13,955 bases of DNA from positions 1 through 13,955 of the forward strand of contig JARLFW010000114.1 of assembly GCA_031296345.1 (NCBI GenBank), written 5' to 3'. This document shows, piece by piece, positions 919 through 13,955 of this stretch. Position 1 is the stretch's first letter, and each line of letters opens with the position of its first letter. The notes under the pieces were generated by a model. It searched no databases. It was not told the origin of the DNA and saw only the letters and a program-made list of their open reading frames with translations. A program made the translations under genes and the position numbers. This DNA comes from Nitrosotalea sp. GTDB taxonomy: Archaea > Thermoproteota > Nitrososphaeria > Nitrososphaerales > Nitrosopumilaceae.

Positions 919-922
919 GAAG

Positions 923-1573: not shown

Positions 1574-1596
1574 TGGATTGTATGCAGGAAGTGATG

Positions 1597-2046: not shown

Positions 2047-2069
2047 TTGGATTTATTGACAGACATATG

Positions 2070-2079: not shown

Positions 2080-2118
2080 TTTTCCCAAGATCTGTACAAC
2101 TCACGTTAATTTGATCGC

Positions 2119-2151: not shown

Positions 2152-2153
2152 GT

Positions 2154-2717
2154 TTATGGGATTGATCTACTGTACAATTTGCCCTCTAAGGCCATCTTGT
2201 ACATTTCTGCAACATATGGGTTCTCTCCTGGGGTTTCTGCTCCAAGTTCGACGAGTCGTGCGTATACTCTTACTACATAGGCAAGTGCGCCCATGAAAGC
2301 AACGACGACACCCATGTTAAACATCCAGTGATTTGGAACTGCAAAGATCTCCTCTACATACCAGAAGTGCCACATCTCATTAACACCGATGGTAAACATT
2401 GTTGCCAAGTAACCAAGGATAGTCATCTTAAGACCTGTGTTCATTGAGTTGTTTGGACCTCTCAGAATTGGTACCTTTCTGTCATAGACAGCTACCATTC
2501 CCCATCCTATTGGAAGAGCAATGAAGTGACTGTATAACCACCAGTGTGCTGGTGTGAAGGCACTATCTCTGATTGATGTCTGGTGTAAAGATCCATCTAC
2601 GAAGTTATCAACCTCTACTGATGCTGCAATTGATCCCAATGCGATGACGATAAGCCAGATCTTCTTCAGTCTCTGGATTTCGACTTCTTTTGGAATTAGT
2701 GCGGGCATTTGTGCCAT
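2154..2717 (-). CDS. amoC: Ammonia monooxygenase subunit C
   Basis: This 187-aa integral membrane subunit of AMO shows the copper-site pattern of the PmoC/AmoC family: D41-x3-H45-x12-H58 (in VDNFVDGSLHQTSIRDSAFT and the following PAHWW), the same spacing as the Asp/His/His copper ligands of bacterial particulate methane monooxygenase PmoC. About four to five hydrophobic spans follow. The sequence also contains GVNEMWHFWYVEEIFAVPNH, typical of archaeal AmoC. A TATA box at 2740-2747 is 27 nt upstream of the ATG. It is divergent from amoB across a 252-bp regulatory gap and followed by amoX and amoA on the same strand. Some ammonia-oxidizing archaea carry extra amoC copies elsewhere; only this one is in the window. 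Confidence 0.97.
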   Translation of the reverse strand: MAQMPALIPKEVEIQRLKKIWLIVIALGSIAASVEVDNFVDGSLHQTSIRDSAFTPAHWWLYSHFIALPIGWGMVAVYDRKVPILRGPNNSMNTGLKMTILGYLATMFTIGVNEMWHFWYVEEIFAVPNHWMFNMGVVVAFMGALAYVVRVYARLVELGAETPGENPYVAEMYKMALEGKLYSRSIP

Positions 2718-2739
2718 AGACTTGTGAATGGTTCATACT

Positions 2740-2747
2740 TATTTAAA
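2740..2747 (-). promoter_or_regulatory. TATA box of amoC
   Basis: The minus-strand TTTAAATA is centred about 27 nt from the amoC ATG at 2717, giving a predicted leaderless transcript. Confidence 0.58.
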
Positions 2748-2862
2748 CCGTAAGTTATAATTTCTACAAGATTAAGTATAATTCTTATATTTTCAAGCCC
2801 AAAATAATATCAATAATACTTTAAATCAAGACATAATATTGTAATAATCATATACTAAAAAT

Positions 2863-2886
2863 CATGTTATCCATGATTAACATGGA
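2863..2886. promoter_or_regulatory. Nested inverted repeats upstream of amoB (candidate operator)
   Basis: In the amoC/amoB divergent region two dyads overlap: CATGTTA (2863-2869) pairs with TAACATG (2878-2884), and TCCATG (2870-2875) pairs with CATGGA (2881-2886). The element lies about 60 bp upstream of the amoB TATA box and 120 bp from the amoC TATA box. It could bind a regulator; no factor can be named. Confidence 0.3.
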
Positions 2887-2927
2887 TGTTATACACATGT
2901 ACTATCGCCAAATGGATCAGGCAGGGC

Positions 2928-2939
2928 AAAATATATATC
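2928..2939 (+). promoter_or_regulatory. TATA box of amoB
   Basis: AAAATATATATC lies about 36 nt upstream of the amoB ATG at 2970, predicting a short 5' leader of roughly 10 nt. It falls inside the upstream in-frame extension of amoB, which argues that the extension is not translated. Confidence 0.55.
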
Positions 2940-2969
2940 GTTGTAGTTTCTCATTTGTTTCAGTTCAAT

Positions 2970-3536
2970 ATGGTCGATAAGAAGTTTATTGTGGCTGCAA
3001 TAAGTGTGATAGTAGCACTTGGAGCAGTTGGACCATCAATGGCACAAATGTTCCAACATGCTGAAGCACATGGTGTCCAGGCACAACTACAGAGTCGTTT
3101 CGTAAGAATAGATGGTGAGACTTGGTCAAAACAATCTGTTCATACTGGAGACACTTTGACTGTATCTGGCAAATTCGTAAGTCTTGTAAACAGAGACATG
3201 CGAGGATGGTACACCGTTTACGGTGATTCACCAAACGCTGGTAATAGATGGGAAATTATGGCAAGAGATCCACCTGGTAACGTAATTACAATACCAGCTA
3301 ACGGAGTAGTTCCATACACACTAACCATCAAGGCACTCGAACCAGCAGTATATCACATGCACACACAGCTTAACATAGCAAGCATCGGTCCAGGTCTCGG
3401 TCCAGGACAAACAGTCGTGGTAACAGGCGACCCAATCGTAAAACCAATTCCATATGCAAATGTGGCCTATCAATCAGTAGTGATAGCAGTTGGATATGCG
3501 ATTACTTTCGCTACAAGACCGTGGCAAGTGATTTAA
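2970..3536 (+). CDS. amoB: Ammonia monooxygenase subunit B
   Basis: AmoB is the extracytoplasmic copper-binding subunit of AMO. The 188-aa protein starts MVDKKFIVAAISVIVALGAV with a signal peptide ending near SMA-QMF, followed by HAEAHG (H30, H34), a cupredoxin-like beta domain with YHMHT (H129, H131), and one hydrophobic C-terminal span ending TRPWQVI. The N-terminal His plus HxH pattern matches the PmoB dicopper ligands. Archaeal AmoB has only this one cupredoxin domain and one anchor, unlike bacterial AmoB/PmoB (two domains), and the length here agrees. The reading frame is open back to 2886, but that extension covers the TATA box and precedes the signal peptide, so 2970 is chosen. It is divergent from amoC. 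Confidence 0.97.
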   Translation: MVDKKFIVAAISVIVALGAVGPSMAQMFQHAEAHGVQAQLQSRFVRIDGETWSKQSVHTGDTLTVSGKFVSLVNRDMRGWYTVYGDSPNAGNRWEIMARDPPGNVITIPANGVVPYTLTIKALEPAVYHMHTQLNIASIGPGLGPGQTVVVTGDPIVKPIPYANVAYQSVVIAVGYAITFATRPWQVI

Positions 3537-3540
3537 AACA

Positions 3541-3572
3541 ATCACCCCCTCTCTTTTCATTTTCTTACTTTG
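3541..3572 (+). terminator. Pyrimidine-rich terminator of amoB
   Basis: Directly after the amoB stop the plus strand has a C/T tract with several T clusters (CTCTCTTTTCATTTTCTTAC), the usual archaeal termination signal. Confidence 0.45.
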
Positions 3573-3592
3573 AATTAGTATAAACTATTTTT

Positions 3593-3871
3593 CTAGAATA
3601 AAGACTTGGTTTTATTAAATTCCAAAGTCCACTTTCGAATAAAGTAAAGAGGAGTTAGAACTGATATGGGTAATGAAATAATCATTCCAAACGGCCATGA
3701 AATGCTCATCTGTATTACCAAGTCTACAAAAAATATTAGCACTTCAATTATGATACCATAGACTAGTTTTCGTATTCTATAAAATGCAAATATTTGTGTA
3801 ACAAATGTAGGTATTACTGCAAGTATCATCTGAGTCTTGAGAAATTTTTCGGCCTTGTCATCTAGTGCCAT
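3593..3871 (-). CDS. Small three-span membrane protein, unknown function
   Basis: This 92-aa protein has a charged N-terminus (ALDDKAEKFLK) and three hydrophobic stretches at about residues 12-31, 37-56 and 60-78, with basic residues in the YRIRK loop and the RK/K-rich tail. It is convergent with amoB, 57 bp away, and divergent from the cupredoxin gene. No catalytic or metal-binding motif is visible. No clear TATA box lies at the expected distance from the ATG. It is not one of the AMO subunits I recognise, but its small size and position beside amoB make a link possible. Coding status is supported by the coherent membrane topology; function is unknown. Confidence 0.6.
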   Translation of the reverse strand: MALDDKAEKFLKTQMILAVIPTFVTQIFAFYRIRKLVYGIIIEVLIFFVDLVIQMSISWPFGMIISLPISVLTPLYFIRKWTLEFNKTKSLF

Positions 3872-3983
3872 TATATCATAACATAAGATTTGCTTGCAAT
3901 TTTAGTGTTCAAGTTTAATCATCTCAAAATCAGGCTTAATGAATTCTCAATGTTAATAGGACTTGGATCCATATCATAACATC

Positions 3984-4430
3984 ATGAAAGGTATACCTGT
4001 ACAAATAATTGCATTATGTTTTGCCTTGGTACTAGTTACTACAATTCCTACTTCATATTCCCAGACAAATACCCAGGCAAGTAAATCACATACCATATTC
4101 ATTATGGGATGTGCAATAAGTCAGGCTTGTTTTTTTCCATGCCAAATAACGGTTGCAAAAGGAGACACTGTAACATGGGTAAACAGGGATACTGTTAATC
4201 ACATGATAATTAGTGGAAGCGGACAACGGGGTCCAGATGGATGGTTTTCAAGTCCTGTTATTTTCTCACATGGAATGTTTTCACATGTGTTTGATAGAAA
4301 GGGTGCGTTTCCATACTATGACAGCGTCAATACATATTCCCAAGGTGTAGTCATTGTAGATTCTCCAACAAACTCTAATTTTGTAAAACTCCAACAGTCA
4401 TATTTTTCAGACTGGTGGTGTACAAGATAA
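3984..4430 (+). CDS. Secreted cupredoxin-fold protein lacking canonical copper ligands
   Basis: This 148-aa protein starts MKGIPVQIIALCFALVLVTT with a signal peptide ending near SYSQ, followed by a plastocyanin-like domain (QITVAKGDTVTWVNRDTVNH). The first type-1 copper ligand, H73, is present. The C-terminal ligand loop that in related archaeal cupredoxins reads about YYC-x2-H-x2-M-x-G here reads YYDSVNTYSQG, so Cys, His and Met are replaced by D113, N116 and S119. A classical blue copper site therefore cannot form. Three unusual cysteines (C43, C49, C53) lie before the domain core and a fourth (C146) near the C-terminus. A longer TTG start at 3963 is possible, but the ATG directly precedes the signal peptide. 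It is convergent with the LamG-like gene, with one base between their stops. It may have a structural role or another metal site; electron transfer is unlikely. Confidence 0.8.
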   Translation: MKGIPVQIIALCFALVLVTTIPTSYSQTNTQASKSHTIFIMGCAISQACFFPCQITVAKGDTVTWVNRDTVNHMIISGSGQRGPDGWFSSPVIFSHGMFSHVFDRKGAFPYYDSVNTYSQGVVIVDSPTNSNFVKLQQSYFSDWWCTR

Positions 4431-4431
4431 T

Positions 4432-5121
4432 CTAGTATTCTATCTTGACATCGTCAAAGTATGCACCAGTATCTTTCTTGGTCCACATTCCAACTTGACC
4501 AGATAGATAATTGTGATCATTTGCTTGAATGATTATCGTACCGTCAAGATATGCAGCAATTCCTTGTGAAGAAACTAATGCCTTTAATGTGTGCCATTCC
4601 CCTGGGGCAATTGTCACAGTCTTGTCATAGTTGCATATCAAAAAGTCAGGTGTATCCTTGCATAAAGAGAGCCTGTTTTTGTCCGAATCTGCCATCAAAA
4701 CAAAATAATGTTTTGTGTCAATGAATCGAAGAATCATGCCGGCAGACTTGGCTTGGCTGCCTGATACAATTTTAAAATTCATGGTAACATTTTCAGTATC
4801 AACAGTTGGCGAATTTGGAATTAGTTGATAGTGATAGTCAGATGATGAATCATTTACAGGTACTCTTTGCATCACATTTGGTAAAGATGGTGCACTAGGT
4901 TCTGCTCGTATAATCCAAGAAAACTTGGGGTCAATTGATCCTTCAGCAAAACCTTCTGGGACTGTCCCATTTTGATATGAATCAAAGTTAATTGTCATCG
5001 AATGTTTAAAGCCAGAATTAATTTCAGAGTTGTAAAACGCATATGATATTCCAATTATTGTAATAATAGCAAAGACTGCAAGACGTTTCTTCTTACTAAA
5101 CGGCTGTTTTTTTGCTGACAA
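4432..5121 (-). CDS. Membrane-anchored LamG/concanavalin A-like domain protein
   Basis: This 229-aa protein has a lysine-rich cytoplasmic start and one N-terminal hydrophobic span (about residues 13-30), then an extracytoplasmic beta-rich domain. The pattern of AGMILRFIDTKHYFVLMADS, PGEWHTLKALVSSQGIAAYL, DGTIIIQ and SGQVGMWTKKDTGAYFDDVK is typical of the jelly-roll family that includes LamG and DUF1080-type (3-keto-disaccharide hydrolase-like) domains. These often bind or process sugars, but no catalytic residues can be assigned. Start is TTG; an in-frame stop lies three codons upstream, so no ATG alternative exists there. A TATA-like TTTATATC lies about 36 nt upstream. A surface-attached, possibly glycan-binding role is inference. 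Confidence 0.7.
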   Translation of the reverse strand: MSAKKQPFSKKKRLAVFAIITIIGISYAFYNSEINSGFKHSMTINFDSYQNGTVPEGFAEGSIDPKFSWIIRAEPSAPSLPNVMQRVPVNDSSSDYHYQLIPNSPTVDTENVTMNFKIVSGSQAKSAGMILRFIDTKHYFVLMADSDKNRLSLCKDTPDFLICNYDKTVTIAPGEWHTLKALVSSQGIAAYLDGTIIIQANDHNYLSGQVGMWTKKDTGAYFDDVKIEY

Positions 5122-5208
5122 GAATATCTACAGGTAGAGTGCAAATTGTGATTGATATAAAGATACCATTATATGAAAATAAAAAATTCAAACGTCAGGA
5201 AAATAAAA

Positions 5209-5415
5209 TTATCGTTTCTTTTCTCGTTTTCTTGGTTTGTTCTTACTTCTCCATTTGTCAAAGCCCCATCGTGTGGCACCAAATGTACCAAGTGTAAAGA
5301 AGAGTCCCCCTACCATTAGAAAGATGAAACTATGATCAACAAAATACCAAAAACCAAATCCCAAGGTCGCACTAACAAATTGTAGTATAACAAAAGCTAT
5401 CCACCTATCTACCAT
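5209..5415 (-). CDS. Two-helix small membrane protein, unknown function
   Basis: This 68-aa protein has two hydrophobic spans (about residues 5-27 and 31-48) linked by a short turn and a strongly basic C-terminal tail (WRSKNKPRKREKKR) that should be cytoplasmic. A TATA-like TAAATAG lies about 28 nt upstream of the ATG, supporting expression. It lies 109 bp downstream of the end of amt on the same strand and upstream of the LamG-like gene. No functional motif is visible. Confidence 0.6.
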   Translation of the reverse strand: MVDRWIAFVILQFVSATLGFGFWYFVDHSFIFLMVGGLFFTLGTFGATRWGFDKWRSKNKPRKREKKR

Positions 5416-5485
5416 TTACAAAGTTTGGTAAATTGACATCTATTTACTGTTTCTCAATTTAGAAAAAACAATCAATCAAGAGTGA

Positions 5486-5522
5486 CTTGGAAAATAGAAA
5501 AATGAAAAGAGAGGGAATAGTT
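5486..5522 (-). terminator. Pyrimidine-rich terminator of amt
   Basis: After the amt stop the minus strand carries a T/C-rich run (CCCTCTCTTTTCATTTTTCT) consistent with archaeal termination. Confidence 0.4.
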
Positions 5523-5524
5523 TT

Positions 5525-7030
5525 CTACTCTGCAAATCCAGAGTATGCTCGTTCGCCGACTTGAGATATGTCCAATCCCACTTCTTCTTCTTTTGGTGTA
5601 ACACGTACTCCACCTGGCCAAATTGCATCTTGGATTCTCCAAATGATGTAAGTCATGCCAAATGACCACGCTGCACCAAATCCTGCTCCCATACAATTAA
5701 TTACAAACTGCATTGGGTTTCCAAAGAAGAGACCGTTGTGTCCAAATGGGTTGATTCTGACTTCACTGAATGCACCTGTAAGTAATGCACCTACAACACC
5801 ACCCATTCCGTGTACACCCCAAGTATCCAGTGCATCATCTATTCTTGCCCTGTTCTTGATTAATACACAGTAGAAGCAGACTGTTGCGCATGCAAATCCT
5901 ACTATAATTGATGCCCATGTTCCAATGAACCCAGAGGCTGGCGTAATTGCTACTAATCCAGCAACAGCTCCGTTAACCGCACCTATGGCGCTAGTCTTTC
6001 CTGTATGTGCCCAGCTTAAGAACATCCACCATATTGCTGCAACCGCAGTTGCAATGTTGGTGTTCTGGAATGCTTGTGTTTCTAGGAAACCAGCAAATCC
6101 TGCACTACCAGGGTTGAAACCAAACCATCCAAACCAAAGTAATGATGCACCCAATATTATAAGCGGAATTGAGTGTGGTTCAAATGGTGCTTTACCATAT
6201 CCTATTCTTCTTCCCAAGAACATTGCAGTAGCTAAGCCTGCAAATCCTGAGGTGATGTGAATGACTGTTCCTCCCGCAAAGTCTTCTGTACCAATCTTGG
6301 CTAACCAGCCCATCGCGGTACCCTGACTTGCAAGAGACCAGTTTGCATGTCCTACGAAATCATAGATGAATGTGGTCCACAATACAATGTGTATCAAGAA
6401 TGCACTCATCTTTACTCTGTCAGCATAACCAGCTATGGCAAGTGACGGAGTGATGGCAGCGAACATAAGCTGGAACATCACATAGGCTAAGTGTGGAATA
6501 GTTGGAGCATATACATCGGCTGGCGCATTGTGCGATACGTTATTCAAGCCTACCCAGTCAAGGTTTCCGATAAATCCAACAGAATCAGCAGAAGGACCAA
6601 ACATTATCGAGTATCCAAAGACTACCCATTGAACACTGACAATTGCATAGACCATGAATGCTTGTAGTATAACTGTTAGAGAGTGCTTTCTTCTTGTAAG
6701 ACCTCCATACAAGAATCCCACACCACCAGGAGTCATTATCATGACGAAGACTGCTGCTGCGTACATGAAGGTTGTATCTCCTGTGTCTATACATGGTGCA
6801 TTACTTCCACCGAACGTTCCATTACCCGGAGGTATCATCGGCTGAGCACAGTGAAGCTCATTAGTTTTAGCAGGATTTGCAAGAGCCCCTAATGGGCCAA
6901 ATTGAGCATGCGCATCCTCTATTGCCGTGAATCCAGATAACCCGACTATTAAGCCTGCGAGCACAAAAACTACCGGCCATTTGTGTTTTGTTACTATCTG
7001 CATTGGCGATTTAGAAATTGTCTCCAGCAT
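5525..7030 (-). CDS. amt: Ammonium transporter (Amt/MEP/Rh family)
   Basis: Amt imports ammonium across the cytoplasmic membrane. Family signatures are clear: MTPGGVGFLYGGL in the first core helix, the twin pore histidines (GGTVIHITSGF, about H258, and WGVHGMGGVVG, about H407), WFGWFGFNPGSAG, and eleven or so spans. Before the core is a cleavable-looking hydrophobic segment ending DAHA, then an extracytoplasmic insert with two cysteines (HCAQP, APCID). The frame is open to 7066, but the ATG at 7030 is chosen: the TATA box (about 7054-7062) lies inside the upstream extension and exactly 28 nt before this ATG, and the same promoter segment precedes another gene without being coding there. It is divergent from a 55-aa membrane protein. 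It probably works with the nearby PII protein. Confidence 0.95.
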   Translation of the reverse strand: MLETISKSPMQIVTKHKWPVVFVLAGLIVGLSGFTAIEDAHAQFGPLGALANPAKTNELHCAQPMIPPGNGTFGGSNAPCIDTGDTTFMYAAAVFVMIMTPGGVGFLYGGLTRRKHSLTVILQAFMVYAIVSVQWVVFGYSIMFGPSADSVGFIGNLDWVGLNNVSHNAPADVYAPTIPHLAYVMFQLMFAAITPSLAIAGYADRVKMSAFLIHIVLWTTFIYDFVGHANWSLASQGTAMGWLAKIGTEDFAGGTVIHITSGFAGLATAMFLGRRIGYGKAPFEPHSIPLIILGASLLWFGWFGFNPGSAGFAGFLETQAFQNTNIATAVAAIWWMFLSWAHTGKTSAIGAVNGAVAGLVAITPASGFIGTWASIIVGFACATVCFYCVLIKNRARIDDALDTWGVHGMGGVVGALLTGAFSEVRINPFGHNGLFFGNPMQFVINCMGAGFGAAWSFGMTYIIWRIQDAIWPGGVRVTPKEEEVGLDISQVGERAYSGFAE

Positions 7031-7049
7031 CTTTGGATAGAGAAGTTTC

Positions 7050-7079
7050 TCATCTATAAAAGGCATTTTATCCTAAAAT
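7050..7079 (-). promoter_or_regulatory. amt promoter with dyad operator (copy 1 of a 30-bp shared element)
   Basis: On the minus strand the element reads ATTTTAGGATAAAAT, a perfect dyad (arms ATTTTA/TAAAAT, spacer GGA, bases 7065-7079), then a TATA box CCTTTTATAG and ATGA. It matches 9558-9587 at 29 of 30 bases; the single difference is at 7064 (C versus T). Distance from TATA centre to the amt ATG (7030) is about 28 nt. The dyad sits where the BRE and upstream region would be, a good position for an activator or repressor. Confidence 0.65.
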
Positions 7080-7093
7080 ATTTTTTTTGTGAT

Positions 7094-7137
7094 ATTATAC
7101 CATCTCAGATCAATATTTTGTAAAATTTTGGTATCAT
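7094..7137. promoter_or_regulatory. Imperfect dyad midway between the amt and 55-aa ORF promoters
   Basis: ATTATACCA (7094-7102) and TGGTATCAT (7129-7137) are inverted repeats matching at 8 of 9 bases. The centre, about 7115, is close to the midpoint of the two divergent TATA boxes (about 7058 and 7167). It may bind a dimeric regulator or may be chance in AT-rich DNA. Confidence 0.25.
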
Positions 7138-7163
7138 AGAATTTGAAAAAATTCTAAATAAAA

Positions 7164-7171
7164 TTATTATA
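7164..7171 (+). promoter_or_regulatory. TATA box of the 55-aa membrane protein gene
   Basis: TTATTATA is centred 27 nt before the ATG at 7194, the same leaderless spacing as the amo genes, supporting expression of this short reading frame. Confidence 0.5.
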
Positions 7172-7193
7172 CAACTTACAAACTAAACCACCC

Positions 7194-7361
7194 ATGACAG
7201 AAGCAGGCATAGAAATTTTCATTGCAACTGGAGTAGCTCTTGTAATGACAATAGCAATTTACTTTGGTGAAAGAGCTCACAGGTATAATTTAGCAAAGAA
7301 AGGAAAAACCTGGGGAACCTACGGCTTTAGATACGAAGGCACAGGTCACGAACACGCCTAG
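7194..7361 (+). CDS. 55-aa single-span membrane protein divergent from amt
   Basis: A short reading frame begins at ATG 7194 and ends at TAG 7359-7361. The protein starts MTEAGIEIFIATGVALVMTI with one transmembrane helix (about residues 5-24), then a basic amphipathic stretch (ERAHRYNLAKKGK) and a Gly/aromatic tail (WGTYGFRYEG) ending in GHEHA with two histidines. A well-placed TATA box and absence of any competing gene support it as real. By the positive-inside rule the C-terminal part should be cytoplasmic. It may be a small accessory protein of Amt or of the membrane-bound ammonia oxidation system; this is inference from position only. Confidence 0.68.
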   Translation: MTEAGIEIFIATGVALVMTIAIYFGERAHRYNLAKKGKTWGTYGFRYEGTGHEHA

Positions 7362-7442
7362 AGTAAATCCCTTTACCATATTTTTGTAACATCCCTATAA
7401 TTAGATAGATTGATTTATTCACAAAAGATGCTTTAACAAATA

Positions 7443-7934
7443 ATGCGAGAAAATCTCAAAGAAGAAGAGTACATCATTGCATCACTTCCTCAAATTTGGG
7501 GAATAGCATTAGGATTAAGCGGTTTCTTTCATAAAAATAAAGAAGGCATTCTAATTCTTACAAACAGAAACGTAATTTTTGTCCCACGTTACATATGGAT
7601 AACTGGAAAAGAAAAGGAGAGGTATTTTCTAGATGACAAGGCAAGCATAGGAAAGATGTCAGATTACAATGAATCAGATCTTAATGAGGATCTGACTGAG
7701 AATCCAAAATCTTGGATAATGCCATTAGATTCTATAACAGATGTTAGAAGTATAATAGCAAGAAATGTAAATTTCTTGCGAATAACATTTACAGAAAAAG
7801 GAAAAGAGAAAAAATATGATTTTGGAATTTCAAAAACGGTAACAAATTACCCTACTCGTCAACCTCTTGTTTTTAAAAATTTGGACTGGAGTCTGTGGGT
7901 AGGGTTGATAGTATCAAAACTAAAAAAACCATAG
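7443..7934 (+). CDS. Hypothetical protein with PH/GRAM-like fold signature
   Basis: This 163-aa soluble protein starts MRENLKEEEYIIASLPQIWG. The segment GILILTNRNVIFVPRYIW resembles the opening strands of bacterial PH-like or GRAM-type domains (the LTN-R-x-I/V-F pattern). A later stretch IMPLDSITDVRSI and NFLRITFTEKGKEKKYDF also fits the strand succession of that fold. A TATA-like ATTTATT lies about 27 nt upstream of the ATG. It ends nine bases before the convergent gene's stop. Function is unknown; PH-like domains often bind membranes or proteins. Fold assignment is by pattern only. Confidence 0.6.
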   Translation: MRENLKEEEYIIASLPQIWGIALGLSGFFHKNKEGILILTNRNVIFVPRYIWITGKEKERYFLDDKASIGKMSDYNESDLNEDLTENPKSWIMPLDSITDVRSIIARNVNFLRITFTEKGKEKKYDFGISKTVTNYPTRQPLVFKNLDWSLWVGLIVSKLKKP

Positions 7935-7943
7935 ACTGTAAAA

Positions 7944-8417
7944 CTATTTTTTCTCTTCAGCCTGTCTGAGCCTCTCTAGTGCCTGTGAAATGACAAAATC
8001 ATCAACCGAGTCTTCTTTTTTTAGGAATTGTAGGTCAGTCACCTTCTTTTTGAACTTGAATATCTCAAGTTCATATTTTTTATTCTTGGGGGAATAGTTT
8101 GCAATTTGCAATGATGCAGACCCATTGTATTCCTCCATAAACTGTTGATAGTTATCTGATATTTTTAGCGATTTTAGGAAAACAGTTGTTTTCTGCAATA
8201 TACGAGATTGACAATATAGAATAAATTCATAGTTTGTATCTCCTTCAAAGAATCTCATTTTGATTTCATAGTCTGGCCAATATTTTATTATATGATTCCA
8301 GGCGTTGACAAGTTTTTTTTTATTATCAAATATCAGGTAGATAGTAGGGCGTACATCAAATACATGATACCCCAGGCCTATAAAATCTTCAAACCACTCT
8401 ATTTTTGAATCAGACAT
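7944..8417 (-). CDS. Hypothetical soluble protein
   Basis: A protein of 157 aa starting MSDSKIEWFEDFIGLGYHVF, rich in aromatic and charged residues and ending with a helical acidic/basic tail (SQALERLRQAEEKK). No domain is recognised. The frame is open to an ATG at 8459, but a TATA box (TATATAAT, 8442-8449) lies downstream of that ATG and 29 nt before the ATG at 8417, so the shorter start is chosen. It is divergent from the 72-aa gene. Confidence 0.6.
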   Translation of the reverse strand: MSDSKIEWFEDFIGLGYHVFDVRPTIYLIFDNKKKLVNAWNHIIKYWPDYEIKMRFFEGDTNYEFILYCQSRILQKTTVFLKSLKISDNYQQFMEEYNGSASLQIANYSPKNKKYELEIFKFKKKVTDLQFLKKEDSVDDFVISQALERLRQAEEKK

Positions 8418-8441
8418 GTCAATTCCAAGAAGCAGGTATTG

Positions 8442-8449
8442 TATATAAT
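8442..8449 (-). promoter_or_regulatory. TATA box deciding the start of the hypothetical gene 7944-8417
   Basis: The minus strand reads ATTATATA centred about 29 nt before ATG 8417. It lies within the longer reading frame starting at 8459, making that longer start unlikely. Confidence 0.5.
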
Positions 8450-8514
8450 TAGATTGCAAAAGTTTTCAATAAGAAAATTTAAGATGTCAAACAGTTCAGA
8501 TTATTTTGGATATC

Positions 8515-8733
8515 ATGGGAACTAGAAAGCGAATAAGCGAAATAATGAAGATGAGTGAAGAGGAGTTATTTGAATATATCAGACAAGAAGACAGTTCAAT
8601 CCAATCAACTGACAAAATAGAGATGAAACCTTTTGAACATGGCATCAAGATCTTTTATTTCCATAAAGATGCTGAGAAACCCTACAAGACACGAGTTTTT
8701 CTAAACCCAGAAGAATCAGAATCTCTCAAATAA
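8515..8733 (+). CDS. Small acidic hypothetical protein
   Basis: A 72-aa soluble protein starting MGTRKRISEIMKMSEEELFE, with a predicted N-terminal helix and a C-terminal part (HGIKIFYFHKDAEKPYKTRV) likely to form beta strands, ending in a short acidic tail. A TTG start at 8506 would add three residues, but the ATG at 8515 is preferred. No family is recognised. It is divergent from 7944-8417 and convergent with the Cas4-like gene. Confidence 0.5.
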   Translation: MGTRKRISEIMKMSEEELFEYIRQEDSSIQSTDKIEMKPFEHGIKIFYFHKDAEKPYKTRVFLNPEESESLK

Positions 8734-8788
8734 TTTCAAAATCATCTTTAGGAATTAAATTAAAAATTAAAATGAAAAAAGTGTGTGA

Positions 8789-9538
8789 TTATAGGATGGA
8801 TTTTGATTTGAGTTCACGCCACTTGCCACGAGCCCAGAATCCCCATTTCTGTTTGTCTTCATTTGCATAGTAACATTTCTCATTATGAGGACATTCCATG
8901 CATTTCTCAGATGGTTCGATTGCAGGAGCAATATTATTTGTCAGCAAGGTATTGAGAATTTTTGCTCTACGTTTTGTTTCGTTTAAGAGCTTCTCACTTT
9001 TTGGAACATTGAATTCCATTTCATTTCCTTCCCTATCAAAGTAGACAATCACGCCTTCTGGTTTGTCAAACATGAATAGATATGAGTTCAGATGTATGAA
9101 ATCTGCCGGATATGGCATTTCAGGTAATTTTTCTGAACCTCTAAAGAGCATCACTACTTCATCTTCAACTCTGTCAGCTCTACCGACAATCTTTACGTTA
9201 GAACCTGCATCGAGTTGACCATCAAGTGGTTTTTCCATGATGGAAAATGCGCTCTTTTTCATTATCTTTGACACCATCTGTTTGTGATTGCTTTCAGACG
9301 GATCCTTTCGATCAAGGTATGCATTTCTCAAACATCCGCTTACCTCATCTACTGTGATCTTTCCTTCATCAGCTACTTGCGGATTAATTGCTGCAAAGAC
9401 TTGCTCAATGACATCGTAAACATCTACTCGCGGTGGTGAATCAGATGCTGCACGATAATTTTCAATTCCTTCCTTAATTTTGTCTTGAACCTTTCCAACA
9501 ATTTTTGTCTTCTTGTAGCTAGCTTTGGATTCTGTCAT
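8789..9538 (-). CDS. Cas4/AddB-like Fe-S cluster protein with degenerate PD-(D/E)XK nuclease motif
   Basis: This 249-aa protein has the cysteine arrangement of Cas4 and AddB-type nucleases: C69 in SGCLRNAYL, and C213-x2-C216-x5-C222 near the C-terminus (KCMECPHNEKC), which in those families bind a 4Fe-4S cluster. Between them the nuclease core is recognisable: VKIVGRADRV (first acid D122) followed by a strand EVVMLFRGSE where active enzymes have an Asp/Glu-x-Lys. Here those positions appear to be M130 and F132, and the later Gln-containing helix reads FIHLNSYLF with His in place of Gln. It is probably catalytically altered or inactive and may be a DNA-binding or redox-sensing protein. It is divergent from the PII gene and its promoter copies that of amt. 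There is no CRISPR array or other cas gene in the window. Confidence 0.65.
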   Translation of the reverse strand: MTESKASYKKTKIVGKVQDKIKEGIENYRAASDSPPRVDVYDVIEQVFAAINPQVADEGKITVDEVSGCLRNAYLDRKDPSESNHKQMVSKIMKKSAFSIMEKPLDGQLDAGSNVKIVGRADRVEDEVVMLFRGSEKLPEMPYPADFIHLNSYLFMFDKPEGVIVYFDREGNEMEFNVPKSEKLLNETKRRAKILNTLLTNNIAPAIEPSEKCMECPHNEKCYYANEDKQKWGFWARGKWRELKSKSIL

Positions 9539-9557
9539 TCTTTTGAGAAATGGAATT

Positions 9558-9587
9558 TCATCTATAAAAGGTATTTTATCCTAAAAT
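9558..9587 (-). promoter_or_regulatory. Promoter with dyad operator (copy 2 of the 30-bp shared element)
   Basis: The element is identical to the amt promoter segment at 29 of 30 bases: dyad ATTTTAGGATAAAAT (9573-9587 on the minus strand), then TATA box CCTTTTATAG. TATA centre to ATG 9538 is about 28 nt, the same geometry as at amt. A second perfect palindrome, AAAATGATCATTTT (9583-9596), overlaps its upstream end. Because the PII gene starts about 80 bp away on the other strand, the operator could act on both genes. Confidence 0.65.
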
Positions 9588-9596
9588 GATCATTTT
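9583..9596. promoter_or_regulatory. 14-bp perfect palindrome between the Cas4-like and PII genes
   Basis: AAAATGATCATTTT is its own reverse complement and overlaps the shared dyad by five bases. It is absent from the amt copy, so it may be specific to this divergent promoter, or may be chance in AT-rich sequence. Confidence 0.35.
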
Positions 9597-9636
9597 ATGA
9601 TAATATTCTTTATTTTATAATATTTTAAGCAATGAT

Positions 9637-9645
9637 TTTAATAAA
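9637..9645 (+). promoter_or_regulatory. TATA box of the PII gene
   Basis: TTTAATAAA is centred 28 nt before the ATG at 9669, favouring that start over the ATG two codons earlier (9663). Confidence 0.45.
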
Positions 9646-9668
9646 AGCATTTCATATGTGCAATGATT

Positions 9669-10016
9669 ATGACCCTTAAGAAAATCGAGGCAGTATTTCC
9701 AAAAGAAAAATTGGATGCTGTCTTCAATGCTCTAACGCAGACTGACATAAGCGGGTTCACGTATTTTGATGTCAAGGGCAGAGGTGCCAGACCAAGAGAA
9801 ATGGTTTCATCAGGCAGAGGAGGTCGTATTGAAGCTACGCACAATATCAACTCCATAGTCATTGTAATTGTCACTGAGAGTCAGTTACCTAAAGTGATAG
9901 AAGCAATACAAACTCATGCAGGTACAGGTCAAGCAGGAGAAGGAAAGATCTTCATCTATGACGTTGCTGATGCAGTAGACATTGGAACCAAGAAACACGG
10001 CGAATCCTCACTCTAA
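9669..10016 (+). CDS. PII family nitrogen-regulatory protein (GlnB/GlnK-like), divergent T-loop
   Basis: This 115-aa protein starts MTLKKIEAVFPKEKLDAVFN, the usual PII opening, and has the C-terminal family signature TGQAGEGKIFIYDVADAVDI. PII trimers sense ATP/ADP and 2-oxoglutarate and control targets such as Amt. The T-loop region reads KGRGARPREMVSSGRGGRIE: the Gln near canonical position 39 and the uridylylation Tyr51 are not present, and the C-terminal IRTGE motif reads IGTKK. Regulation by tyrosine modification is therefore unlikely and ligand binding may differ. The lysine of the EGK motif is retained. An ATG at 9663 would add two residues; the TATA spacing favours 9669. It is divergent from the Cas4-like gene, 2.6 kb from amt, and likely linked to ammonium uptake. 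Confidence 0.9.
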   Translation: MTLKKIEAVFPKEKLDAVFNALTQTDISGFTYFDVKGRGARPREMVSSGRGGRIEATHNINSIVIVIVTESQLPKVIEAIQTHAGTGQAGEGKIFIYDVADAVDIGTKKHGESSL

Positions 10017-10017
10017 A

Positions 10018-10050
10018 TTTCTTTTATATTTTAATTTAAAATTTTCACGT
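10018..10050 (+). terminator. T-rich terminator of the PII gene
   Basis: The stop codon is followed by TTTCTTTTATATTTTAATTT and a further TTTT run, a typical archaeal T-tract terminator. Confidence 0.4.
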
Positions 10051-10067
10051 ATTGAAAATATCTTAAT

Positions 10068-10076
10068 GTATATAAC
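10068..10076 (+). promoter_or_regulatory. TATA box of the gene at 10098
   Basis: TGTATATAA is centred about 26 nt before the ATG at 10098, supporting that start and a leaderless transcript. Confidence 0.45.
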
Positions 10077-10097
10077 TCCATAAAGCACAGAAAAGTC

Positions 10098-10616
10098 ATG
10101 TTCTGGCCTGGAATGGGAGATCCTGCAAAACGCAAAAAGATGATCAGGTTTCTCATAATTTCAGCAGCAATAGGAGTTTCAGTTGTCTTGATTAGTACTA
10201 CACTTATTTCACAAGTAAAGGCACAAGATCCTCTGTATCACAAATGTCTTTCTAAATCAGATATCCAATATCAGATAACTGCATCGCTAGAAGTTTCAGT
10301 GGATGGAAAAAAATGGATAAAACCAGTTAGTACTACAGATATGCCAGCAAATTGTGAAAAAAGGACTATGGTTTTAGCAGATGATGGGACCATTACCGGT
10401 TCATGGGTTAAGAAATACCCATTTGAGGTAGGCCAATTCCTATGGACATCAGGTTTTCCTTTACGTGACATGGATGAAACAAGATCAAAGATATATGAAA
10501 ACGGCGCACAATCACCTGACTTTATTCATACCATAGTGCAAGATGGAGCTCACTATAAAGCAGAATTTGTCACAAAGAATGCTGGAGCCCCAACCTTTAC
10601 ACCTCCACAAAGTTAG
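10098..10616 (+). CDS. Membrane-anchored extracytoplasmic protein, unknown function
   Basis: This 172-aa protein has a short cytoplasmic N-terminus (MFWPGMGDPAKRKKM), one hydrophobic span at about residues 16-38 and an extracytoplasmic part beginning near VKAQDPLYHKC. The domain appears beta-rich (ITASLEVSVDGKKWIKPVS, DDGTITGSWVKKYPFEVGQF) and contains two cysteines (C50 in YHKCLS and one in PANCEKR) that could form a disulfide. The span may be an anchor or an uncleaved signal peptide. No known domain is recognised. It is convergent with the first AmoY/AmoZ-type candidate gene. Confidence 0.65.
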   Translation: MFWPGMGDPAKRKKMIRFLIISAAIGVSVVLISTTLISQVKAQDPLYHKCLSKSDIQYQITASLEVSVDGKKWIKPVSTTDMPANCEKRTMVLADDGTITGSWVKKYPFEVGQFLWTSGFPLRDMDETRSKIYENGAQSPDFIHTIVQDGAHYKAEFVTKNAGAPTFTPPQS

Positions 10617-10650
10617 ACTTGAAAAAATAGTTCAGAATCAAATAACATGA

Positions 10651-10692
10651 AATAATTCAAAATTATACCAAGTAGAATAATTCAAAATTATA
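10651..10692. repeat. Tandem pair of 17-bp repeats with internal dyad
   Basis: AATAATTCAAAATTATA occurs at 10651-10667 and again at 10676-10692, with starts 25 bp apart. Each unit contains the dyad ATAATT-CAA-AATTAT. The pair lies between the convergent ends of the gene at 10098 and the membrane protein gene at 10736, so it may form hairpins near transcript ends or be a protein-binding site. Confidence 0.6.
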
Positions 10693-10735
10693 TCATCTAA
10701 GGGACTAAATAAAAATAAGGAAAAAGAGTTGGAGT

Positions 10736-11005
10736 TTACCAGTATTTACCGTTGTCTGGGATCAGACCAATGCCTTCTCTTTCAAAGTGCTTGTTGAGTT
10801 CTGCGACCCATCTTTCTCTTGTGTCGCCACCAAGACCGTGCACTCTGAGCCAGAATGCAATTACTCCTAGAAGGAATACTGAGAACATGATGGTTGCGAA
10901 TATGTAGACCATCACATCATAAAATAGCGGGTCGTAGTTTGGACCTATCTGACCTGCAAAGTTTGACAGTATACCTACGAGCATAGTGAATATCGTGCTC
11001 ATCAT
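10736..11005 (-). CDS. Small two-span membrane protein, candidate accessory AMO subunit (AmoY/AmoZ type)
   Basis: This 89-aa protein starts MMSTIFTMLVGILSNFAGQI with one hydrophobic segment, a short loop (GPNYDPLFYD), a second span (about residues 29-53) and a soluble C-terminal tail (RVHGLGGDTRERWVAELNKH) ending DNGKYW. The frame extends to a GTG at 11017, but the TATA box at 11027-11035 is about 26-28 nt from the ATG pair at 11005/11002, so the ATG is chosen. It precedes no other gene on its strand and lies 109 bp downstream of another small membrane protein gene. Two extra small membrane subunits, AmoY and AmoZ, have been described for archaeal AMO from adjacent genes; size, topology, pairing and proximity to amo fit. 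I cannot verify this by alignment, nor say which of the two it would be. Confidence 0.6.
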   Translation of the reverse strand: MMSTIFTMLVGILSNFAGQIGPNYDPLFYDVMVYIFATIMFSVFLLGVIAFWLRVHGLGGDTRERWVAELNKHFEREGIGLIPDNGKYW

Positions 11006-11026
11006 AAATGAAAACACTTTAGGTGC

Positions 11027-11035
11027 GATATATAC
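11027..11035 (-). promoter_or_regulatory. TATA box of the first AmoY/AmoZ-type candidate
   Basis: The minus strand reads GTATATATC, centred about 26-28 nt before the ATGs at 11005 and 11002 but only 14 nt from the GTG at 11017, so it decides against the longer start. Confidence 0.5.
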
Positions 11036-11113
11036 ATTTCTGTAAGAACGAAAAGTTTGAGATCAAAATCAGGATTGAGTGTAAATTAATAAAATAAGAA
11101 AAAGAGATAATGA

Positions 11114-11416
11114 TTAAGCTCTCTTTGCTTTTTCCGCTTGCTTTGCTTTTACGACAAAAGCAATGAAGATTCCACCGAATATTCCACCTGAAATGATTGA
11201 TGCACCTACTACACCGTTTGCATCAAGGTATGGAGTACCGGAACCTGCGTGCGGATTATTTTGTACTGCCTGAACTTTTGCTCGTGCCAGTTTCAACTCT
11301 TCGTCTAGGCTGGTAATTCCACCGCCTGCTTGGTATTGAGCCGCAGCAAACGGAACGAATGTCGAGACTGCAAATAGAGCCAGGAGCACTGTTCCAATAA
11401 TTATTGGTGTTTTCAT
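11114..11416 (-). CDS. Small membrane protein with signal segment, candidate accessory AMO subunit (AmoY/AmoZ type)
   Basis: This 100-aa protein has an N-terminal signal or anchor helix (MKTPIIIGTVLLALFAVSTF, ending near FAAAQ), an extracytoplasmic helical segment (SLDEELKLARAKVQAVQNNP) with a His/Gly/Pro loop, a second span (about residues 69-89, VVGASIISGGIFGGIFIAFV) and a lysine-rich cytoplasmic tail. The topology, size and pairing with the 10736-11005 gene fit the description of the additional archaeal AMO subunits AmoY/AmoZ. Both genes have their own strong TATA boxes, as the amo genes do. Assignment is from memory of the family description, not from alignment. Another small envelope protein remains possible. 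Confidence 0.6.
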   Translation of the reverse strand: MKTPIIIGTVLLALFAVSTFVPFAAAQYQAGGGITSLDEELKLARAKVQAVQNNPHAGSGTPYLDANGVVGASIISGGIFGGIFIAFVVKAKQAEKAKRA

Positions 11417-11441
11417 ATGAGTACCTATTCAGATTCGAATC

Positions 11442-11450
11442 CGTATATAT
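11442..11450 (-). promoter_or_regulatory. TATA box of the second AmoY/AmoZ-type candidate
   Basis: The minus strand reads AAATATATAC about 30 nt before the ATG at 11416, predicting a 5' leader of only a few bases. Confidence 0.5.
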
Positions 11451-11490
11451 TTAACTTTTATGCAATTATCACGACTGCGAAGATCCAAGT

Positions 11491-11500
11491 AACATTTATG
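11491..11500 (+). promoter_or_regulatory. TATA box of the rpsO operon
   Basis: AACATTTATG is centred about 27 nt upstream of the GTG at 11524 and probably drives the whole ribosomal protein-led operon. Confidence 0.4.
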
Positions 11501-11523
11501 TTTCGTTAAAAAACAAGCGCTTC

Positions 11524-11973
11524 GTGGGCCGACTTCATTCACACCGACATGGCAAGTCACATTCGACAAGACCGATTACTCCTAGTGCACCAACATGGGT
11601 AAAACAAAGCCCAGCTGAGATCGAAGAACTTGTTGTAAAATATGCAAAAGAAGGTCTCACTCCAAGCAAGATCGGAATAAAATTGCGTGATCAATATGCA
11701 ATACCGATCACAAGACAACTTGTCAAAAAGTCAATTACAGATATTCTTGAAGAAAAGGGAATAAAGACAGACATGCCTGAAGACTTGAACAACTTGGTAA
11801 CCAAGGCACTGGGTCTTCAAAAACATTTGAAGGAACATAGATCGGATAAAAGAAATGTCAGATCACTTGAGCTCTTAGAGGCCAAAGTCCACAGACTATC
11901 TTCATACTACAAGAAAATTGGTAGAATAGCCAAAACTTGGAAATATAAGGCAGTCATTGCTCAACTCGAATAA
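11524..11973 (+). CDS. rpsO: 30S ribosomal protein S15 (archaeal S15p/S13e)
   Basis: This 149-aa protein of the small ribosomal subunit starts at GTG as (M)GRLHSHRHGKSHSTRP, the typical archaeal/eukaryotic S15p/S13e opening, followed by PTWVKQSPAEIEELVVKYAK, TPSKIGIKLRDQYAIP and the conserved C-terminal helix pair (LELLEAKVHRLSSYYKK, AKTWKYKAVIAQLE). The length is normal for the archaeal form, which carries an N-terminal extension absent in bacterial S15. It binds 16S rRNA in the central domain. Its stop codon overlaps the ATG of the next gene (TAATG), indicating translational coupling in an operon. Confidence 0.96.
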   Translation: MGRLHSHRHGKSHSTRPITPSAPTWVKQSPAEIEELVVKYAKEGLTPSKIGIKLRDQYAIPITRQLVKKSITDILEEKGIKTDMPEDLNNLVTKALGLQKHLKEHRSDKRNVRSLELLEAKVHRLSSYYKKIGRIAKTWKYKAVIAQLE

Positions 11974-13370
11974 TGGCAAAGTTAGACCAAGCATTATCTT
12001 ATTTTCATGATAGAGTTTCTGATTGTATCAAAACAGGAAAAAATATTTCAGTTATTACACACCTTGATTGTGACGGTATAACTTCTGGTAGCATTGTAAC
12101 GAAATCTTTGATCAGGGCAGGTGCAAAATGTACTGTAAAAACAGTAAATGAATTTAGCAAAAATGTTCTTGAGAAAATGAAAAATGATTCAAGACAATTT
12201 CATATCATAACTGATCTTGGCGGAGGATTTGCAAAGGATATCGATAATGCATTAGGGGAAGAGTGGATTGTAGTTGATCATCATCAGATTCCACAAGAAG
12301 AGTTTGATAATCAAAAAGTAATCAATGCATGGAAGTTTGATGTAGACGGTGGAAAGGATGTATCAGCTGGAGGAATGGCGTATCTAGTATCAAAGGGACT
12401 ACACAAAGAGAACACAGACTTGGCATGGATTGCAGTTGTTGCAGCATTAGGGGACAGACAAGACCAGGGCGAGAAGAAATCTTTCACAGGACTAAATTTA
12501 GAGATTGCAGCTATTGCAAAAAAGAATAATCAGGTTGAGATTGATTTAGACATTTTACTGGTTGGAAGAGAGACAAGATCACTGCCAGATGCACTTGCAT
12601 TTACTTCTCAGCCTTTCATAGAGGGCCTAACATGGAATCGTGATGCCTGTCTTTCACTGTTAAATTCATCAGGAATAAAACTAAAAGATGGTAGTAGATG
12701 GAGAGTTCCTGCCGAACTTTTAGAGGATGAAAAAAGAACTTTACTTCAAACTATATCAAAGTACATTTCTACAAAAAATGCAAGCGATATTCTAGATGAG
12801 CTAGTTGGATATACCTATACATTATCTGGCGAAGATAAGCGAAGTTTTCTTCGTGATGCAAGAGAGTTTTCAACAATGCTAAACTCTTGTGGCAGAATCC
12901 GCAAAGCCGGAGTAGGGGTTGCAATCTGCATGGGAGACAGGACCAAGATGTTAGAAGAGGGTGAAAACATTTTGGTGGAATATAGAACATTCCTAAGAAC
13001 ATACATGAATACACTTTCAAGTGAGAGATGGAGAATAACTGATAACGGATCATACTTGATGGTAAATGGAGAAGGTCTTGTCCCAGAAAATATGACAGGT
13101 GCAGTATCATCACTTCTTGGCGGTTCACAGAAAAATACTGGAAAGATAATCATACTAAGAACAAATGGTGATGAGGGGACGATCAAGTTCTCCTCACGCA
13201 AATCTACTGGTTGCAAATCAGAAGTTAATTTGGGATTACTAATGCGAGAATGCGCTGCCAAAGTTTCAGGTGTGGGAGGAGGACATGCAGCAGCCGCAGG
13301 AGCAAGAATTACAAAAGACAAATTGGATGAATTCCTAGATCATCTGGAAAAAAATGTCTCTAGAATGTAA
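11973..13370 (+). CDS. DHH family phosphoesterase, archaeal RecJ-like (single-strand nuclease)
   Basis: This 465-aa protein has the DHH/RecJ motifs in order: ITHLDCDGITSG (H30, D32, D34), HIITDLGGG (D81), VVDHHQ (D102, H103, H104), a further GDRQDQGE near residue 155, and the C-terminal DHHA1 signature VGGGHAAAAGA. The motifs bind two catalytic metal ions. Archaeal members are RecJ-like exonucleases acting on single-stranded DNA or RNA, and some associate with the GINS/CMG replication machinery; which role applies here is not visible. It overlaps the rpsO stop by one base and the following pcc1 start by 17 bases, so the genes are co-translated. Confidence 0.9.
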   Translation: MAKLDQALSYFHDRVSDCIKTGKNISVITHLDCDGITSGSIVTKSLIRAGAKCTVKTVNEFSKNVLEKMKNDSRQFHIITDLGGGFAKDIDNALGEEWIVVDHHQIPQEEFDNQKVINAWKFDVDGGKDVSAGGMAYLVSKGLHKENTDLAWIAVVAALGDRQDQGEKKSFTGLNLEIAAIAKKNNQVEIDLDILLVGRETRSLPDALAFTSQPFIEGLTWNRDACLSLLNSSGIKLKDGSRWRVPAELLEDEKRTLLQTISKYISTKNASDILDELVGYTYTLSGEDKRSFLRDAREFSTMLNSCGRIRKAGVGVAICMGDRTKMLEEGENILVEYRTFLRTYMNTLSSERWRITDNGSYLMVNGEGLVPENMTGAVSSLLGGSQKNTGKIIILRTNGDEGTIKFSSRKSTGCKSEVNLGLLMRECAAKVSGVGGGHAAAAGARITKDKLDEFLDHLEKNVSRM

Positions 13371-13596
13371 AGTTGAAGTGTTTCTGAATAACCTTTCAGA
13401 GAAAAGGATGGATTCCATAAGAAAATCTTTAGAGCCCGATAATGTTGATTTTCCAGAAAATCTTTCGTTTAAAATAGAAAAGCAAGACACATCTCTAGTT
13501 TTTACATTTGAGGGTAAAGGAAATATACGAACATTGATTTCTACTATTGATGAAGTTCTTGAACAGACTCAAGTTGTACTCAAAGTGACTAGTTGA
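13354..13596 (+). CDS. pcc1: KEOPS complex subunit Pcc1-like
   Basis: This 80-aa protein starts MSLECKVEVFLNNLSEKRMD and fits the small alpha/beta Pcc1 family: an N-terminal strand, a helix beginning near the EKRMDSIRKSL segment, two beta strands (SFKIEKQDTSLVFTFEG) and a final helix (NIRTLISTIDEVLEQTQVVL). Pcc1 is the dimerization subunit of KEOPS, which makes the t6A modification at tRNA position 37. It starts inside the DHH gene and its TGA overlaps the serS ATG, placing it in the same operon with a tRNA-related gene. The assignment rests on size, fold pattern and the frequent archaeal association with serS-type operons. Confidence 0.75.
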   Translation: MSLECKVEVFLNNLSEKRMDSIRKSLEPDNVDFPENLSFKIEKQDTSLVFTFEGKGNIRTLISTIDEVLEQTQVVLKVTS

Positions 13597-13955
13597 TGCT
13601 TGATCCAAAACTTCTTCGAGAGAATCCCGAGAAAATTAGAACCATGTTGGAAGCAAGAGCTGTCAAATTTCCTCTTGATGATCTAATATCACTAGACAAG
13701 GATAGAAGAGAATTAATTATAAAAACTGATGAATTAAGAAAAAAAAGAAACGAAGTATCATTAGAAATTTCAAGAATAAAGAAATTAGGTAAAGACGCAT
13801 CTGAACTAATAGGACAAATGCAAACAGTTTCTGATGATCTTCGCAAATTAGAAGAGACTCAGATAAAAGTAGAAGAGAATTTCACAAAACTTTCTTTAAC
13901 ATTGCCCAATATGGTACACGAATCAGTACCTATTGGAAAAGACGATACTGCAAAC
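13596..13955 (+). CDS. serS: Seryl-tRNA synthetase, N-terminal part (cut by window edge)
   Basis: The first 120 residues of seryl-tRNA synthetase, which charges tRNA-Ser with serine. It begins MLDPKLLRENPEKIRTMLEA, the family's standard start, followed by the long antiparallel coiled-coil arm that contacts the tRNA (about residues 30-105; DKDRRELIIKTDELRKKRNE then LRKLEETQIKVEENFTKLSL), and the linker LPNMVHESVPIGKDD that leads into the catalytic domain. It is of the common (bacterial/eukaryal-like) class, not the rare methanogen type. Its ATG overlaps the pcc1 TGA. The catalytic domain (roughly 300 residues) lies beyond the window. Confidence 0.95.
   Translation, partial: MLDPKLLRENPEKIRTMLEARAVKFPLDDLISLDKDRRELIIKTDELRKKRNEVSLEISRIKKLGKDASELIGQMQTVSDDLRKLEETQIKVEENFTKLSLTLPNMVHESVPIGKDDTAN

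Follow-up and report, generated by a model that had tools for sequence, protein, structure and literature searches.

The stretch of DNA analysed here, referred to below as the window, comprises 13,955 nucleotides from Nitrosotalea sp. (GenBank assembly GCA_031296345.1, contig JARLFW010000114.1, positions 1–13,955 of the forward strand) and contains two copies of a promoter element, one preceding amt, which encodes an ammonium transporter, and one lying between a cas4-like gene and the gene for the nitrogen regulatory protein PII. Each copy consists of a 26-bp palindrome, a 7-bp spacer and a TATA box, and the element precedes amt and cas4-like genes in Ca. Nitrosotalea, two sister genera and one genus of Nitrososphaeraceae. 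Judged by sequence, the two copies probably serve as operators of one sequence-specific regulator of ammonia-oxidizing archaea (AOA), with a winged-helix protein as the most likely factor. The accessible part of a 2023 review holds that a system for ammonia sensing and allocation must presumably exist and treats its regulation as open (PMC10432482). A search of open-access titles and abstract openings revealed, among the matches listed, no publication dealing with an AOA amt operator or with the candidate regulator, which is a weak form of absence. A 26-bp operator with few targets and one candidate would allow direct tests of how AOA control ammonium uptake, even in vitro and without genetics, and would link PII and a presumptive amt2 with both a Cas4-fold protein, an unexpected partner, and a new structured RNA.

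The element and its conservation

Read on the minus strand, positions 7050–7079 and 9558–9587 are identical at 29 of 30 positions, which bears out the shared 30-bp element proposed in a first-pass annotation of this DNA. The dyad ATTTTAGGATAAAAT is exact at 7065–7079 and 9573–9587, both copies having the form ATTTTAGGATAAAAT-RCC-TTTTATAGATGA; the RCC after each dyad is followed by TTTTATA. From the first T of this box to the A of the ATG is 31 nt in each gene (7061 to 7030 and 9569 to 9538), and the perfect dyad upstream of a TATA box near a start codon, as first described, is present at both promoters. At lower identity the likeness continues upstream for another 19 bp or so (42 of 50 positions in total), and this extension forms the left arm of a longer palindrome. 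The 15-bp dyad is only the right arm and flank of this palindrome; the real unit is TATCATAAAA-N6-TTTTAGGATA, 26 bp and constant in length, followed by AAATRCC (the 7-bp spacer) and the TATA box. Across 40 distinct rows of amt and cas4-like promoters, positions 1, 2, 4, 5, 7, 17, 18, 20, 24, 25 and 26 never vary, whereas the six bases at the centre do. Two-fold symmetric arms, constant spacing and conservation at orthologous promoters are those of a probable transcription-factor operator. Its parts in the window are as follows.

7069–7094, minus strand: predicted palindromic operator of amt, 26 bp, TATCACAAAA-AAAATA-TTTTAGGATA, self-complementary at 18 of 26 positions
7055–7061, minus strand: putative amt TATA box, TTTTATA, assigned by consensus
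7050–7098, minus strand: whole amt element (palindrome, 7-bp spacer and TATA box), common to the cas4-like promoter
9577–9602, no strand assigned: predicted palindromic operator of cas4-like and PII, 26 bp, TATCATAAAA-TGATCA-TTTTAGGATA on the minus strand, self-complementary at 24 of 26 positions
9563–9569, minus strand: putative cas4-like TATA box, TTTTATA, assigned by consensus
9558–9606, minus strand: whole cas4-like element, common to the amt promoter

Within the window, ATTTTAGGATAAAAT with up to three mismatches is matched ten times; shuffled sequences gave a mean of 1.67 and at most 7. The longest exact repeat is 17 bp, and 20 simulated sequences gave 13–15 bp and once 21; repeat length therefore proves little by itself, and the weight lies on conservation between genomes. 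In the genome to which the window belongs (1,241,237 bases in 180 contigs, 78% complete), the 15-mer with at most one mismatch occurs at these two sites only, and the reversed-pattern control gives none. At the same tolerance it was present in 41 of 61 genomes in a genome scan, with sites paired on one contig 2.5–3.3 kb apart in 17 genomes including this one, and ATAAAAYRCYWTTTATAG had at least two sites in 24 of the 37 genomes of the genus, again with this genome included.

Upstream regions were compared at 27 named loci and in further genomes. Those of amt and cas4-like match in all 21 loci of Nitrosotalea and its kin that hold both upstream regions (19 distinct contig sets), with scores per locus of 23.5–85.5 against null maxima of up to 15. 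They do not match in the 17 Nitrosopumilus-type loci (8.0–11.5; null maxima 9.0–13.0) and barely do so in two Nitrosocaldus-type loci (13.5 and 12.5 versus 11.0). An orthologue of the cas4-like gene occurs in 26 of the 37 genomes of the genus; among the matches listed, amt occurs in all 26 of these, and without cas4-like in two more (G007 and, as a fragment, G006). A profile was built on 53 aligned elements and used to scan 17 genomes. Among the matches listed, the same five amt-bearing Nitrosotalea genomes gave E values of 9e-13 to 5e-12 at amt and 5e-12 to 2e-9 at cas4-like, and a third site followed at 4e-9 to 5e-5 in five of seven Nitrosotalea genomes; the next match, opposite-strand repeats of known sites aside, had an E value of 0.0048. 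An extra match, GTAAAACRCCTTTTATAG, in G002, G005, G006 and G031 was taken as chance; in L115, the one locus of the four whose context was inspected, it lies inside a 251-residue reading frame. Likewise, ATAAAACTCTTTTTATAG in four f2 genomes was set aside, its neighbour being an unrelated open reading frame (ORF) of 492/499 residues. No tRNA gene was found near the sites at the 11 loci examined.

The first-pass annotation had described a promoter–operator element rather than a gene duplication, and had named loss of the dyad upstream of orthologues and many random genomic sites as grounds for giving the idea up. Both were looked for; the element is kept before orthologous amt and cas4-like genes, the long form is rare, and the description stands. 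The accompanying statement that conservation stops just past the TATA box is right for the window and fails at L049, L050, L052 and L053, where the likeness of the amt and cas4-like promoters reaches or passes the start codon.

Further promoters with the palindrome

A possible effect on PII from the cas4-like site had also been suggested, and the constant position of the site supports it. Of 23 loci, 18 have ATTTTAATAAAA at 32 bp from the palindrome, and in L050, L053 and L054 the distance is 39 bp; the outliers L047 (56 bp) and L051 (4 bp) are loci in which another stretch was matched. In the window the corresponding feature is

9635–9646, plus strand: likely PII TATA box ATTTTAATAAAA, 32 bp past the palindrome

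TTTTATA at 9613, considered as the PII TATA box, was dropped in favour of ATTTTAATAAAA, which is the conserved one. The o55/PII gap of L052 contains no palindrome, the best match having six mismatches.

The third Nitrosotalea site keeps the palindrome and the 7-bp spacing, with a different spacer and TATA box (TTAAAAAT), and its promoter appears to drive a hairpin RNA of about 60 nt (L178, L189–L206, L238–L242, L250 and L322–L347). In a structure-fitted alignment of this RNA six pairs show changes in both partners, a count reached by 2 of 500 shuffles, and the covariation score exceeds all 500 shuffles, slid controls being lower; the number of pair types is ordinary (93 of 500 shuffles). A genome scan with stricter filters, by which weak matches are lost, found the RNA in 25 of the 37 Nitrosotalea genomes and nowhere in the other 64, and did not find it in the genome of the window or in its nearest kin, G008 and G013. 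Promoters were analysed for 24 of the 26 copies, L344 and L347 being left out as the hairpin was not recognised there; all 24 carry the palindrome with 0–3 mismatches and the 7-bp spacer, with spacer and TATA sequences that differ from those of amt and cas4-like. Rfam gave no gathering-level match in seven sources and none at E ≤ 1 in L206 (2000–2450). The gene sucC, once considered as the third target, was set aside; the RNA points away from it in L200, L202 and L203. In L195 and L201 the palindrome lies near sucC and no hairpin was recognised. A fourth type of promoter with the palindrome was observed in G026 and G009, between ORFs of 411/419 and 96/109 residues (L188:1501; L216:1503).

Across AOA the palindrome belongs to a broader family, TATCATAA-N10-TTATGATA. 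Nitrosopumilales do not share the exact motif throughout: in Nitrosopumilus-type genomes the palindrome is more degenerate and lies farther from the amt start. Distances were read at 13 of 20 such loci, seven being left out for an unreadable amt start; at 12 of the 13 the palindrome ends 89–91 nt upstream, with 1–5 mismatches, and its presence is argued from this constant place rather than from shuffles. A further Nitrosopumilus-type site precedes a 36-residue ORF. All 16 loci chosen for a readable start of this ORF (three of 19 were left out) carry the palindrome with 0–3 mismatches and a shuffle p ≤ 0.005; it ends 61–64 nt before the ORF, and in L139 36 nt before it and 7 bp from a TATA-like box. 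This conserved hydrophobic ORF (MAEAGMAAYGSAIGVAIALAVVCFALRGKGHPEPLD in L126) adjoins cas4-like and the gene for A-type ATPase subunit C, its loci including L126, L131, L133, L137–L139, L141, L143 and L144. G057, of the Nitrososphaeraceae, has the palindrome at both amt and cas4-like, and a further copy about 10 bp upstream of the TATA-like box belonging to a second amt paralogue.

Candidate regulator and alternative explanations

The best candidate for the bound factor, and on sequence the most likely one, is a single-copy winged-helix protein of about 210–240 residues (G000:C29:4623–5279, minus strand, in the genome of the window). It occurs in 64 of 101 genomes and in 60 of the 66 that are amoA-positive. 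In Nitrosopumilus-type loci its gene lies divergent to amt, with the palindrome between them; in Nitrosotalea it is unlinked from amt. Among the matches listed, the best remaining profile match lies 79–87 bp before this gene in G014, G005, G013 and G032, and the corresponding site ranks second in G009 and fourth in G022. The AlphaFold model (predicted local distance difference test, pLDDT, 92.9) places helices at residues 26–40, 49–60 and 64–79 and strands at 85–91 and 105–110, the arrangement of a winged helix, and its structural matches are largely winged-helix regulators; the closest known regulators by type are PadR, Rrf2, ArsR and RosR-type proteins. For two candidate proteins Pfam gave no family at E ≤ 1 (no PadR, ArsR, Rrf2, MarR or Lrp) and no NrpR domain at that threshold, an NrpR gene elsewhere not having been searched for, and a PDB sequence search gave no useful match. 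The NrpR operator of methanogens is GGAA-N6-TTCC, which is absent from the 53 aligned elements. Both systems place a palindrome, likely read by a winged-helix protein, at archaeal nitrogen genes (amt, glnK), whereas the AOA site spans 26 bp with TATC...GATA and its candidate has no Pfam match. The Ptr2 site is an archaeal activator site upstream of the B recognition element (BRE) and TATA box. The AOA palindrome resembles it in lying directly upstream of the BRE/TATA region but differs in sequence, and activation in AOA is a hypothesis.

The first-pass annotation had proposed one regulator for the ammonium transporter and the Cas4-like gene; as far as sequence goes this was a fair inference, to which a specific candidate can now be added. 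A dimer of the winged-helix protein, proposed because the site is palindromic, would bind beside the BRE/TATA region at amt, cas4-like and the hairpin RNA; at PII and the 36-residue ORF its site would lie about 25 bp farther from that region. Once bound, it would set ammonium uptake, the PII sensor and the Cas4-like protein jointly, and we lean slightly towards activation at amt, cas4-like and PII. The regulator would also act on its own gene, where self-repression is proposed because a palindrome lies close before its start. The sequences themselves show the element with its fixed spacing, conservation and small number of targets; binding by this protein, action as a dimer and self-repression are what we infer from them. 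There is about an even chance that the whole forms a lineage-specific AOA regulon, in which an undescribed winged-helix regulator reads TATCATAA-N10-TTATGATA and couples Amt2, PII, small membrane proteins, the structured RNA of Nitrosotalea and a Cas4-fold iron–sulfur (Fe–S) protein, the last probably without nuclease activity and a possible redox sensor. If true, this regulon would be a nitrogen- or energy-control circuit so far missing from AOA physiology.

Several findings limit this picture. The shorter 13-mer TTTTRGGATAAAA has one further exact match in the genome of the window (C78:723), and with two mismatches its 144 + 151 sites are hardly above the 135 + 130 of the control. The Nitrosocaldus-type amt/cas4-like pair lacks the element in the upstream regions compared, and none was found upstream of the cas4-like gene of L059 (67% identity). 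The palindrome before the candidate's own gene is weaker and often not significant. Among the matches listed, nine of the 37 genomes of the genus have neither amt nor cas4-like (G003, G004, G009, G010, G012, G015, G021, G031 and G032, some of them incomplete), the two being absent jointly, as if gained or lost together. Four of the nine (G004, G009, G015 and G021) have an amoA match, so the absence is not merely one of missing ammonia monooxygenase contigs. Seven of the nine keep the hairpin RNA, six of these seven having been checked to carry the palindrome; because of these genomes, nitrogen control is treated here as a hypothesis.

That the palindrome is a true operator read by some other factor, of Lrp, ArsR or TrmB type or from outside this analysis, with the winged-helix gene merely a target, we consider unlikely. 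Many archaeal regulators bind AT-rich palindromes, and the weakness of the candidate's own site would suit such a factor; against it, the candidate closely follows AOA and, in Nitrosopumilus-type genomes, stands divergent from amt across a palindrome that is kept where the two genes are unlinked. A cassette copied between genes and kept alike by gene conversion, with no common dedicated regulator, is highly improbable as a general account, even though the likeness past the start codon indicates that promoter copying or conversion has happened at L049, L050, L052 and L053: in L052, 88 bp are shared with two differences, into the first codons, and the other three loci are similar. General concerted evolution of the two copies was rejected, since identity within genomes (mean 38.9 of 45; 13 pairs/loci) hardly exceeds that between them (38.4; 156 pairs), a near-equality that speaks for selection on a common consensus; moreover, the RNA promoter shares the palindrome and spacing only, and those of the 36-residue ORF and PII the palindrome only.

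The constant 7 bp by which the element abuts the BRE/TATA region would fit a special core-promoter class, defined by a paralogue of transcription factor B (TFB) and an extended BRE rather than by an operator, and thaumarchaea carry several TFBs. BREs are not known to have a two-fold symmetry of 26 bp, however, and the palindrome is also found about 32 bp from a TATA box, which leaves this explanation a very slim chance. For a chance repeat in AT-rich intergenic DNA the probability is close to nil: the 13-bp core with two mismatches is indeed as common as its reversed control, but the occurrence at orthologous positions, the fixed spacing and the small numbers in the controls speak against it, and conservation has already refuted it.

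Genes flanking the element

The window holds amoA, amoC, amt and PII by Pfam, together with the cas4-like gene and several small ORFs; amoX and amoB are presumably present, named by position from the usual gene order. The genes next to the element are the following.

5525–7030, minus strand: amt, Amt-family ammonium transporter (PF00909), start assumed at ATG 7030
7194–7361, plus strand: ORF of 55 residues that contains a single hydrophobic stretch and lies divergent to amt on the other side of the operator; conserved in the compared loci
8789–9538, minus strand: cas4-like gene, 249 residues, Cas4-type fold, four invariant cysteines
9663–10016, plus strand: gene for the PII nitrogen regulatory protein (PF00543), assigned by Pfam

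The longest amt ORF begins inside the dyad, at ATG 7066, and is 12 codons longer; ATG 7030, in register in relatives, was taken as the start. Given the in-frame ATG within the operator, automatic annotation may call amt too long. By gene order, the window amt appears to be the high-affinity amt2 of N. devanaterra, for which the accessible part of the source notes PII beside amt2 and reports amt2 transcription more than tenfold above that of amt1a and amt1b (PMC4836417). In L040 (8496–10084) and L153 (1083–5264) amt is spread over overlapping pieces in different frames, as is cas4-like in L153, either by sequencing error or by decay.

The cas4-like protein is 98% identical to its counterparts in Ca. 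Nitrosotalea bavarica and isolate GL140_3_metabat_33. In a 19-sequence alignment Cys69, Cys213, Cys216 and Cys222 are invariant and would hold a 4Fe–4S cluster; E-x-K was not seen by eye in this alignment, read without structure superposition, MLFR or similar standing in its place. It scores 20.7 bits against TIGR00372, below the cut-off of 65, and an E value of 3.4e-8 against the PADLOC Cas4 model; a PDB sequence search gave no useful match. Its structural model, of middling confidence (pLDDT 64.7), matches in Foldseek SSO0001 (PDB 4ic1; E = 3.8e-8), which we take to be a Cas4, and a type I-C Cas4 (PDB 8d3l; E = 2.0e-4). The protein thus shares the fold and four cysteines of Cas4 nucleases, but misses the TIGR00372 cut-off, shows no E-x-K to the eye and is encoded beside amt and PII. 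It may be a Cas4-fold Fe–S protein that has lost nuclease activity, possibly an inactive nuclease turned Fe–S sensor.

Uncharacterised ORFs of 55, 163, 171, 75, 68 and 229 residues, which in the window lie within 7194–9538, travel with amt and cas4-like. The same set is found, in differing order, in L036, L047, L049, L050, L052, L053 and L119; it belongs to Nitrosotalea and its kin, and partly also to a Nitrosocaldus-type genome. Two further small ORFs of 93 and 100 residues (10736–11416, minus strand) lie about 12 genes from amoABCX and are likely amoY and amoZ, because that distance has been reported for Nitrosotalea in the accessible part of a study which, in that part, reports no motif that all six amo genes share (PMC10030591).

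The 55-residue ORF of the window and the 36-residue ORF of Nitrosopumilus-type genomes gave no alignment with each other. A possible analogue of both is sP36 of Methanosarcina mazei, described in the accessible part of its report as a small protein bridging AmtB1 and GlnK1 (PMC10714827). sP36, a member of the ammonium-uptake circuit, is soluble and hydrophilic; the 55-residue ORF has one hydrophobic stretch and the 36-residue ORF is hydrophobic.

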